Below, one piece after another: positions 19,793 through 24,128 of a stretch of 32,711 nt of DNA. The notes beneath the pieces were generated by a model. That model was not told the DNA's origin. It worked only from the letters and a program-made list of their open reading frames with translations, and did not search any database. The stretch is from Elusimicrobiota bacterium. GTDB lineage: Bacteria; Elusimicrobiota; Elusimicrobia; UBA1565; UBA9628. Position 1 is the first letter of the stretch, and every line of letters starts with the position of its first letter. Made by a program: the position numbers and the translations under genes. The DNA lies in assembly GCA_026388095.1 (NCBI GenBank), contig JAPLKL010000012.1, positions 1-32,711 of the forward strand, in the 5' to 3' direction.

Positions 19793-20440
19793 TTACCGAG
19801 GCGGGTTGGCGAAGTTGTCGCCCATGACCCGGGCAAAGGCCGCCTGCAGGTCGAACATCCGGTAGCCGCACTGCGCCGGGGGCTCGCCCGAGCTCCCGTC
19901 CGAGACCCACAGGATCGGGCAGTGCGCCTGATAGCGTTTGTACTCCCGGATCGCCGCTTCGGAGATGTGCTCCTCGCGCAGGGCCGGCTGATCCTCCGGA
20001 GCGCCCGGCGCCGAGGCCGCCGCGCTCCGCGGGGTGAAGAAGCGCACCTGCGCCTCCACGAAGCGGGAGAAGCTCTCCGGCGCGTCGCGGAGCACGACGA
20101 ACACGTCCGTGACCTGGCCGTCATCGAACTGAGGCGCCGCCAGGACGAAGTAGCGGAACCGGGTGGGGTTCTCCTCCGCGGTCCGGCTCAGGATGCGGCG
20201 CAGGCGCTCGTAGAACGCGGGGCCCAGCTTGTCGAGGCAGACCCCCCGCCGCGCCATGTTGACCAGGAGGAACGACTCGAAATCCTTCACGTCCTGCTCG
20301 CCGCGGCCCTCTTCCAGGGTCGCCGACCTCATCTCCTTCTCCCCGACCCTGATGACCACGCCCGGGTCCGGAGCGGGGATGTCCGCGCTCCGAACGGCCA
20401 TGGGAAGCCCCAAGACCAGCATCAAGGACCACAGGCGCAT
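19793..20440 (-). CDS. Secreted protein of unknown function
   Basis: 215 residues from the ATG at 20440; earlier in-frame starts are the ATG at 20449 and a TTG at 20461. A signal peptide is visible (MRLWSLMLVLGLPMAVRS). The mature part includes GVVIRVGEKEMRSATLEEG, VKDFESFLLVNMARRGVCLD, FRYFVLAAPQFDDGQVTDVFVVL and AAIREYKRYQAHCPILWVSD, with three cysteines. No family was recognised. It lies 42 bases upstream of the membrane/spermidine-synthase gene on the same strand. CTATAT at 20448-20453, 7 bases before the ATG, could be its -10. Confidence 0.65.
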   Translation of the reverse strand: MRLWSLMLVLGLPMAVRSADIPAPDPGVVIRVGEKEMRSATLEEGRGEQDVKDFESFLLVNMARRGVCLDKLGPAFYERLRRILSRTAEENPTRFRYFVLAAPQFDDGQVTDVFVVLRDAPESFSRFVEAQVRFFTPRSAAASAPGAPEDQPALREEHISEAAIREYKRYQAHCPILWVSDGSSGEPPAQCGYRMFDLQAAFARVMGDNFANPPR

Positions 20441-20491
20441 ACTATGCATATAGGGGCCCAAAGGCCCGCGGACAAAGGCCGGAGGGCCCCC

Positions 20492-20847
20492 GCAAGCCTA
20501 GGTCCAAAGGCCCAGGCTTGCAGGCTGCTGATAAAGTCCGTTCTGCGAGCGCCCGGCGGCCGTTTGCCGGCCGTAAGGAAATCCGTCCGGCCGGTACCTG
20601 CGGGACTTCCGATACCGCAGGTGCCGGGCGCAACCGACGCGCGCACCTGCCCGTAAGGAAGGCGGGCAGGTGCCGTGCGGCAATAGCGCACGGAAGCGCG
20701 GCGGCAGGACCCATCCGATAGGTCGAACGAAGGATGGCGCCCCTGCCCGTAAGGAAAACGGGGGCAGGGACCTGGCGACACGGCGTTCTCCTTTTCGCCA
20801 GGCCTTCGGCGCGACTGGCGAGCCTTCGGCTCGCCAGTTCGTTTTTT
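20492..20847 (+). ncRNA. Candidate structured RNA: tandem hairpins ending in a terminator
   Basis: This 356-base stretch has no coding support. Read on the plus strand it folds into a succession of hairpins: GCAAGCCT with its complement (20492-20499/20514-20521), GCCGGCC (20566-20572/20589-20595), GGTACCTGCGG (20593-20603/20615-20625), GCACCTGCCCG (20643-20653/20663-20673, perfect), CCGTGCG (20673-20679/20687-20693), CCATCC (20711-20716/20732-20737), CCCTGCC (20741-20747/20763-20769), CCTGGCG (20771-20777/20796-20802). Three of them carry CCGTAAGGAA or CCCGTAAGGAA in the loop region. A plus-strand terminator follows. Both neighbours lie on the minus strand. A dispersed repeat or a protein-binding array is an alternative. 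The promoter was not identified. Confidence 0.4.
20812..20847 (+). terminator. Rho-independent terminator on the plus strand
   Basis: A perfect 11-bp stem (ACTGGCGAGCC at 20814-20824 with GGCTCGCCAGT at 20828-20838) has a 3-base loop and is followed by TCG and six T residues at 20842-20847. The T run follows the stem only on the plus strand; on the minus strand it would be an A run before the stem. No annotated gene on the plus strand ends here. Confidence 0.7.
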
Positions 20848-20850
20848 GGA

Positions 20851-20888
20851 CCGTATACACACTGTGTCCGGACACAGTGTGTATACGG
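20851..20888. repeat. Perfect 38-bp palindrome without spacer
   Basis: The half CCGTATACACACTGTGTCC at 20851-20869 is followed at once by its exact reverse complement at 20870-20888. There is no loop and no mismatch. It lies 3 bases after the plus-strand terminator T run and 40 bases beyond the speA stop. No U run follows on either strand, so a terminator role is unlikely; a dimeric-protein binding site, cruciform or element end are possibilities. Confidence 0.9.
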
Positions 20889-20928
20889 CATGCGAGCGGA
20901 GATCTCTGGCGGGTTTGTCAGCAGCCTG

Positions 20929-22941
<2,013 letters not shown>

Positions 22942-22948
22942 CGCAGTC

Positions 22949-22954
22949 AGTATA
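22949..22954 (-). promoter_or_regulatory. -10-like TATACT before speA
   Basis: TATACT on the minus strand ends 7 bases before the speA ATG in the 17-base gap after the TPR gene. No -35 match was found. It fits the recurrent start-proximal hexamer pattern in this window. Confidence 0.4.
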
Positions 22955-22958
22955 TCAA

Positions 22959-24128
22959 TTACGCGCCGAAGGGCGAGATATGCCCCGGGTAGCCGTCTTT
23001 CCAGGGAGCGCGCAGGCCGGCTCTGGCGAACTGCCTCAGGTCCCACAGGTCGGGCTCGGCAGCCGCCGCCTTGTAGAGCTCCACGGCCTCCGGGCGCCGG
23101 CCCATGAGGTCGAGGAGGTTGCCGGCGCGGATCTCGGCCCAGACGCCCCAGCGCGTGATCTTGCCGTCGATGCGGATATCTTGGGCGGCGCGCAGGGCCG
23201 TGAGAGCCTCCTGGCGGCGACCCGCGGCCCAGAGCGTGGTGCCCTGGATCACCAGAGCCTTGGCCAGTTGCAGGGAGTCATATTCGCCGCTGCGCGCCCG
23301 CTCCAGGAACCCGTCCACGTCGGCCAGGACCTCGGGGTAGCGGCCGGCCTCGTAGTTCGCCACGAAATCGATGTCCTGGACCATGGCCGAGTCCGGGTAG
23401 CGCTGGCGCACCTCGGCGCTGAGCCGGGTGGCTTCGGACGGGTCGCGCAGGCCCCACTGGTCCTCGAGCAATATCTCGCACAGGATCATCTTGGAGACGA
23501 CCTGGCTGAAGGTCCCGCTCCGGGCCGAGCGCTTGAGCTCGTCGATGCCGCGCTCGCGGTTGCCGCGCAGGAAGAGCTTGGCCAACACGCGCACGAAGCG
23601 CGGGTAGGCGTCCGAATAATAGTCGTACATGCCCAGGCCCAGCCAGGGGTCGCCCATGGATGGATCCAGCAGGGCGGCCTTCTTGAGGTGCGCGACCGCG
23701 GTACGGCCATGCCAATAGGCCTTGAGCCATTGGTGGCGCACGGCGAGCAGGCGCGCCGAGACCCCGTAGGCCGCGCCCAGGGCCATGAAGCCCTCCGCGT
23801 CCCGGGGATGCTTCTTGACCCAGGCCGTGCCCTTGACGATGGCGTCATCGGTCCGCTTGGCGAAGGTGGCCAGCAGGGCCGGGTCGGCCTGCTCGGCTCC
23901 GTAGATGTACTGGATCATGGAGACCGCGGCCAAGCCGAAGTGGCCGTAAGGATGGTCCGGCTCCAGGGCGATGACGCCGCGCACCGCGGCGTCGGCCTCG
24001 CTCCACTTCATGGAATAAAGGAGGTCGAGCGCGTTCTGCAGCTGGCGGTCCATCTCCGGGGGGATGGCCCGGGCGCAGGCGGGCAGCAAGAGCAGCAGGC
24101 AGAGAGCTCGGCGCAGGTGTCTCATCAT
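22959..24128 (-). CDS. Secreted TPR-repeat protein
   Basis: 389 residues (a second ATG at 24125 is possible). A signal peptide MRHLRRALCLLLLLPACARA is followed by helical repeats. TPR-like units are seen in ALDLLYSMKWSEADAAVRG, ALEPDHPYGHFGLAAV, HLKKAALLDPSMGDPWLGLG, GIDELKRSARSG and AGNLLDLMGRRPEAVELYKAA. The Cys in LLLPACARA could suggest a lipobox, but the following residues are not the classic Gly/Ala/Ser-rich form, so lipidation is open. It likely works as a periplasmic scaffold; partners are unknown. It has a consensus promoter of its own and lies 17 bases before speA on the same strand. Confidence 0.85.
   Translation of the reverse strand: MMRHLRRALCLLLLLPACARAIPPEMDRQLQNALDLLYSMKWSEADAAVRGVIALEPDHPYGHFGLAAVSMIQYIYGAEQADPALLATFAKRTDDAIVKGTAWVKKHPRDAEGFMALGAAYGVSARLLAVRHQWLKAYWHGRTAVAHLKKAALLDPSMGDPWLGLGMYDYYSDAYPRFVRVLAKLFLRGNRERGIDELKRSARSGTFSQVVSKMILCEILLEDQWGLRDPSEATRLSAEVRQRYPDSAMVQDIDFVANYEAGRYPEVLADVDGFLERARSGEYDSLQLAKALVIQGTTLWAAGRRQEALTALRAAQDIRIDGKITRWGVWAEIRAGNLLDLMGRRPEAVELYKAAAAEPDLWDLRQFARAGLRAPWKDGYPGHISPFGA

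Follow-up and report, generated by a model that had tools for sequence, protein, structure and literature searches.

An IS1182-type MITE in an Elusimicrobiota genome hosts nested hairpin micro-elements, relatives of one of which have inserted in frame into protein genes

What are the densely packed hairpins that fill some 400 bases between two minus-strand genes at 20453-20850 of the window, i.e., the whole 32,711-nucleotide stretch of Elusimicrobiota DNA analysed here? A sequence-only reading of this locus counted at least nine hairpins and offered three interpretations: an undescribed structured RNA, a protein-binding array, or a dispersed element. The fold of 20450-20895 gives about ten stem-loops, in agreement with that count, at -260.2 kcal/mol versus -200.6 (sd 7.2) in dinucleotide shuffles (z = -8.3). 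The shared loop CCGTAAGGAA lies on the plus strand at all three sites claimed for it (20571, 20651, and 20747), and the last two copies do have different stem partners, both being placed within a 26-nt direct repeat (20641 and 20737; 88% identical). Moreover, the stem followed by six T on the plus strand corresponds to a terminator-like hairpin at 20813-20839 and its TTTTTT (20813-20847 together), the sole such structure found in 20300-21100. Among the three interpretations, only that of a dispersed element is left standing, with 23 genomic sites for the left end of the unit that contains the block and 32 copies in this genome of one of its inserts, named element A.

The block is an IS1182-type MITE, a small dead-end transposon, inserted at a gene-ending CTAG. 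Specifically, the whole MITE measures 408 bp (20521-20928), nested inserts included, and is bounded by 15-bp terminal inverted repeats, namely CAGGCTGCTGATAAA on the plus strand at 20521-20535 and its complement, with one difference, on the minus strand at 20914-20928. These are flanked by the two copies of the 4-bp target duplication, CTTG at 20517-20520 (CTAG at this position in most copies) and CTAG at 20929-20932. The hairpin block proposed beforehand thus exists, with a left limit drawn too wide and a right limit too narrow, the real unit being 20521-20928 plus its CTAG-type flanks; the earlier reading overlooked the terminal inverted repeats, a perfect 38-bp palindrome that is part of the MITE (20851-20888), and the three-insert structure described below. 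A search of the same genome with the block returned 79 matches in a mosaic pattern, with the left end at 23 sites. The terminal inverted repeats are present in about 25 MITE copies, most of them with CTAG on both sides (CTTG/CTAG for the window copy), and copies aligned by eye delineate a family of ~250 bp bordered by CTAG left and right. The MITE end matched nothing in a scan of 84,980 genomes, a collection that may omit the genome of origin. The T-run is confined to one MITE subtype (the window copy and those at loci L009 and L015), and most MITE copies have GTTCGGGGA instead at this position, which speaks against a genuine or conserved terminator. We regard the identity and anatomy of the MITE and its micro-elements as highly probable.

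The IS1182 connection is provided by transposase remnants. One of them (G040:C453, E = 2e-14) lies inside CTAGCAGGTTGCTGA repeats, the same kind of ends as those of the MITE, and a second one (L153 in G043, E = 3e-9) adjoins a MITE-type end; on short transposase fragments Pfam gave no match, and the IS1182 match came from NCBIfam. This genome also encodes an intact 472-aa IS1182 transposase (G000:C46:65780-67099, L282) with 21-nt perfect inverted repeats beginning with CTAG. Although CTAG flanks this element too, its repeats, GAGCCTGTCCGAGTAAT, are unlike the MITE ends, and it is therefore a relative of the lost partner and not the partner itself. No intact autonomous partner with the ends of the MITE was found in this genome, in which contig ends truncate further IS1182 pieces; MITE status does not require such a partner. 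Like other IS1182-derived MITEs, the family combines terminal inverted repeats, a 4-bp CTAG duplication, no coding capacity, and the same ends around an IS1182 remnant; unlike them, the window copy has a very hairpin-rich interior that hosts nested micro-elements, and the intact IS1182 of the genome carries other terminal repeats.

The complement of the right CTAG copy is the TAG stop of an arginine decarboxylase gene (20929-23046, minus strand). CTAG is depleted about ninefold in the window (11 occurrences versus 99 expected), about half of the CTAG sites of the genus are likely stop codons, and 31 of the 61 tested MITE flank ends coincide with a TAG that terminates a likely coding frame, with a few copies possibly counted twice through both ends or overlapping loci. 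The scarcity of CTAG outside gene stops in these genomes is the apparent reason why MITE copies are placed there. Copies on a stop-codon CTAG can be seen at L002, L004, L007, L019, L021, and L029, one example being a gene that ends with RFDD-stop.

Within the MITE, three micro-elements on the plus strand, each made of two abutting hairpins, account for most of the loop-sharing hairpins of the block. Element A (20565-20623) is composed of TG (20565-20566), hairpin 1 (20567-20594), TA (20595-20596), hairpin 2 (20597-20621), and TG (20622-20623); element B (20644-20695) of CA (20644-20645), hairpin 1 (20646-20670), TG (20671-20672), hairpin 2 (20673-20693), and AA; element C (20740-20804) of CC (20740-20741), hairpin 1 (20742-20768), GA (20769-20770), hairpin 2 (20771-20802), and CC (20803-20804). 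A shorter sister MITE copy, at L015, matches the window copy in its outer sequence but has none of A, B, and C at precisely the positions given; no CCGTAAGGAA segment occurs in it, and the window copy therefore consists of this MITE with three insertions added. In another sister copy (L009), A and C are present and B is absent. The window element A scores 85.3 bits with a covariance model, while elements B and C have 11 and 5 genomic matches, respectively, with C-type copies at other sites (L049, L156, and L157). B and C have the first loop and the overall plan in common with A and differ from it in their stems. The common architecture is XY-[CC..hairpin 1..GG]-Y'X'-[CC..hairpin 2..GG]-XY, in which XY stands for the 2 bp of the target that are duplicated and Y'X' for the dinucleotide between the hairpins, which complements XY with transition mismatches allowed. 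C-type copies elsewhere keep this dinucleotide pattern (e.g., CA-TA-CA and CC-GA-CC), and element B follows it imperfectly.

Element A is also found alone at many sites. The copy count suggested by the sequence-only reading was obtained with the covariance model, which was built on 30 diverse copies and scored no more than 150 candidates in each genome. It recognises 32 copies in this genome (G000); four congeners have 36, 65, 17, and 6, while two others (G039 and G041) have none, the carriers overall being G000, G038, G040, G042, and G043. Among 44 genomes of the family to which the window belongs, element A is restricted to the genus of the window, and when 84,980 species were scanned for the pattern of its right hairpin, all 54 stretches retrieved came from Elusimicrobia MAGs; the genomes analysed are probably all MAGs. 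The search for covarying pairs, also suggested beforehand, revealed strong covariation in the stems of element A, with 94.8% of the cells paired, double changes at 9 of 16 pairs, and 53 double-change cells versus 15.5 in shuffles (none of 500 shuffles reached the observed level, and the slid controls collapse), although such shuffle values are not strict probabilities because the copies are related by descent. As for the proposed loop-motif rate, CCCGTAAGGAA alone is scarcely enriched (9 versus 5 in a reversed control): the enrichment signal resides in the whole hairpin and not in the loop string.

These observations weigh upon the two other interpretations of the block. A functional structured RNA or a regulatory hairpin array with a genuine terminator would be in keeping with the stable fold, the terminator-like hairpin with its T-run, and the covarying stems. 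The block is, however, accounted for by three separate insertions, an Rfam search of the window matched no family, the T-run is missing from most MITE copies, and the same element is found within enzyme genes on either strand, which makes this reading very improbable. A structured regulatory RNA is further disfavoured by the occurrence of copies in all contexts and on both strands, often inside genes and in several reading frames. The protein-binding array is unsupported because each shared loop belongs to its own insertion. The idea of selection on structure fares better in that the stems covary strongly, but the covariation may reflect a DNA hairpin employed in transposition, or arm-to-arm copying, no less than an RNA. 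A repeat-within-repeat architecture of this kind is readily mistaken for a structured RNA.

Relatives of element A jumped exactly in frame into genes, among them those of basic enzymes, which are thereby 19 amino acids longer. In-frame positions inside likely genes, adding 19 codons, were assigned to at least 51 of 137 copies, in frames +0 (16), -0 (14), +1 (10), -2 (10), and +2 (1); genes were called from open frames and codon-position GC, with Pfam for seven proteins. Element A can lodge in frame because the length of one insertion, 57 bp, is divisible by three and because four of its six frames are free of stops in almost every copy. Frame -1, although open in as many as 120 copies, is unused; the peptide read from its consensus contains many arginine and aromatic residues. 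For peptidase M18 and the PheT core domain, the Pfam match continues across the insert, with 19 surplus residues. Empty sites at the DNA level are available in homologous genes of the genus for glutamine synthetase III (GSIII; 93% DNA identity), PheT, the M18 aminopeptidase, and a tRNA synthetase of class I. At the GSIII junction, G000 reads GAGCGA-CG-CG and the carrier GAGCGA-CG-[55 bp]-CG-CG, and the other three junctions read likewise, so that the inserted unit is 55 bp plus the repeated dinucleotide, i.e., 57 bp or 19 codons. A transporter of the AcrB type also carries an insertion, but its homologues have diverged further at the target. Gene insertions would survive where the added 19-residue peptide is harmless. 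Exact 57-bp tandem pairs of element A were observed in G040 (L222-L226 and L109); in coding frames, tandem pairs would encode repeated 19-residue units.

The dinucleotides that frame and divide element A obey a common rule. In the alignment, the strongest linkage between identical columns is that of columns -1,0 with 56,57, and the left and right XY are identical in 107 of 134 full copies versus 83 upon shuffling within internal-dinucleotide classes (0 of 20,000 shuffles as high); as the two XY copies agree beyond chance within one middle class, this points to a true target duplication. The middle dinucleotide is the reverse complement of the target, with C-to-T or G-to-A transitions allowed, as in GA-TC-GA, AA-TT-AA, CC-GA-CC, GG-TC-GG, CA-TG-CA, and CG-CA-CG. 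The rule was derived from 81 distinct copies, and the hold-out consisted of 57 copies outside that set, mostly fetched afterwards and including seven truncated or reverse-read copies that were excluded from the 134-copy test. In this hold-out, left and right agree in 41 of 57 copies versus 22.9 in shuffles and, at non-CG sites, the middle matches the target in 11 of 22 versus 5.2 (p = 0.002). The 77 copies with CG on both sides have exact CG in the middle in 2 cases, CA in 59, and TG in 14; the rarity of the exact complement at CG sites argues against simple target copying and for wobble-tolerant recognition. Guide complementarity with wobble is statistically clear, as a correlation only; in a lineage test the control positions were as unclustered as the guide types, so that this test did not separate guide type from element lineage. 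Otherwise identical copies (distance 0-1) show joint differences across the three dinucleotides.

The best explanation as a whole, which we favour with some reserve, is an IS1182-type MITE invaded by micro-elements moved in trans, with a 2-nt guide. The micro-elements would be non-autonomous and moved by a putative hairpin-recognising enzyme, with a chemistry that probably takes place on single-stranded DNA, as for TnpA_REP/IS200-type HUH enzymes. The internal dinucleotide would choose the target dinucleotide, preferably in the context GG-XY-CC, and element A would resemble a stripped REP/IS608 logic in which a single 2-nt guide serves both ends. There are precedents for the single steps: TnpA_REP cleaves beside hairpins at CT/CA dinucleotides chosen by complementarity with a guide (PMC8266576), and IS608 can be retargeted through a change of the guide (PMC5934647). 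That the internal dinucleotide of the micro-elements works as a guide is a tentative proposal drawn from aligned copies, and one we would place below even odds. The broader proposal, in which a geneless transposon of <60 bp would carry a 2-nt address label that picks the landing dinucleotide, make a 2-bp duplication, and have spread through the protein genes of the genus, is possible but rather doubtful. To our knowledge, the combination of a 2-nt address label with a 2-bp duplication is found in no described transposition system. Known IS200/IS605 transposition produces no target duplication, whereas the agreement of the two XY copies within a middle class points to one in element A.

A Y1 (HUH) transposase was considered as the mover, but Y1 genes do not correlate with the elements across seven genomes: G043 has elements but no Y1 match, and G039 and G041 have Y1 genes but no elements. 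Among eight Y1 loci examined, none has a Y1 gene flanked by full element copies. At a single one of these loci (G000:C46:58138-59842; L136, L062), a truncated element A lies 1.3 kb away from the Y1 gene; G000 has another Y1 gene at C74:64046.

The same dinucleotides can be explained in other ways. In a target-templated fold-back synthesis with double template switching, the middle dinucleotide would be copied from the target, and the series XY - Y'X' - XY would be the expected trace of two successive fold-backs; the concerted change of all three dinucleotides between otherwise identical copies is in line with this, and arm-to-arm copying would also yield the observed stem covariation. Fold-back, though, predicts exact complements, and CG occupies the middle of only 2 of the 77 CG-flanked copies, which leaves this route unlikely. 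A site-specific recombinase (a serine recombinase or an IS110-like enzyme), which requires a circular element whose 2-bp crossover core matches the target core, would account for a core duplicated on both sides and for the palindromic GG-XY-CC context at the left, middle, and right junctions; such a core should be constant within a lineage, yet nine dinucleotides occur among the 107 matched copies, and we consider it improbable. To a like degree, we doubt that the three micro-elements represent conventional GTAG-type REP doublets mobilised by a genome-encoded RAYT, even if the two-hairpin doublet, the high copy number, the existence of intragenic REP copies (PMC3733652), and the presence of Y1 transposases in the genus are compatible with it, since the terminal GTAG or CGTC tag is absent, full copies flank none of the Y1 genes examined, and the distributions of Y1 genes and elements are uncorrelated.

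In-frame palindromic insertions have been known in Rickettsia since 2000, and we know of no explanation so far for their mode of movement. Like element A, the Rickettsia palindromic elements (RPEs) are short palindromic repeats found in frame in unrelated protein genes and between genes (PMC10969869); they measure about 150 bp versus about 57 bp and belong to another phylum, and, unlike them, element A has a defined 2-bp duplication and a middle dinucleotide matching the target. As to kinship in sequence, the pattern scan of 84,980 species matched Elusimicrobia only. REP/RAYT systems share with element A small hairpin doublets in high copy number, some of them intragenic (PMC3733652), and cleavage at dinucleotides chosen through complementarity (PMC8266576), for which element A offers a correlation only. 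Conversely, element A ends in XY-CC ... GG-XY without a GTAG or CGTC tag, has a shared middle dinucleotide rather than a tag 5' of each hairpin, and is linked to no transposase. The IS200/IS605 family (IS608) and its palindrome-only derivatives resemble it in the hairpin ends and would resemble it in target choice by internal guide pairing (PMC5934647), but the IS608 guide is 4 nt long versus 2 nt in element A, in which one middle guide would serve both ends, and element A shows an apparent target duplication and has no transposase gene. Neither sequence nor tags place it among RPEs or GTAG/CGTC REPs, though the behaviour is alike. A literature search that covered few subscription journals found no earlier description in Elusimicrobia. 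In this uncultured lineage, known from environmental metagenomes, many copies are available, together with DNA-level empty sites from one genus, a target rule that can be measured, and insertions in enzymes; the chemistry of insertion can therefore be tested directly, as can the consequences for protein function of acquiring 19 ready-made residues.

Lastly, some minor features accompany the elements described above. To the left of the MITE and outside it, two further hairpins (20453-20516) have a repeated GGCCCAAAGGCCC-like loop. Other hairpin inserts (AAGCTGTGAAAAAATC... and GCGACAAAACC...) occur inside MITE copies at L009 and L149-L151, some of them within hairpins, as if hairpins were preferred landing sites for such inserts. 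At L012, L013, L020, L032, and L143-L147, the central palindrome CTGTGTCCGGACACAG of several MITE copies is split by a repeated segment starting with CAGAGCTGTCCGGGG or CACTCCTGTCCGGGG, and several contigs terminate inside this segment.
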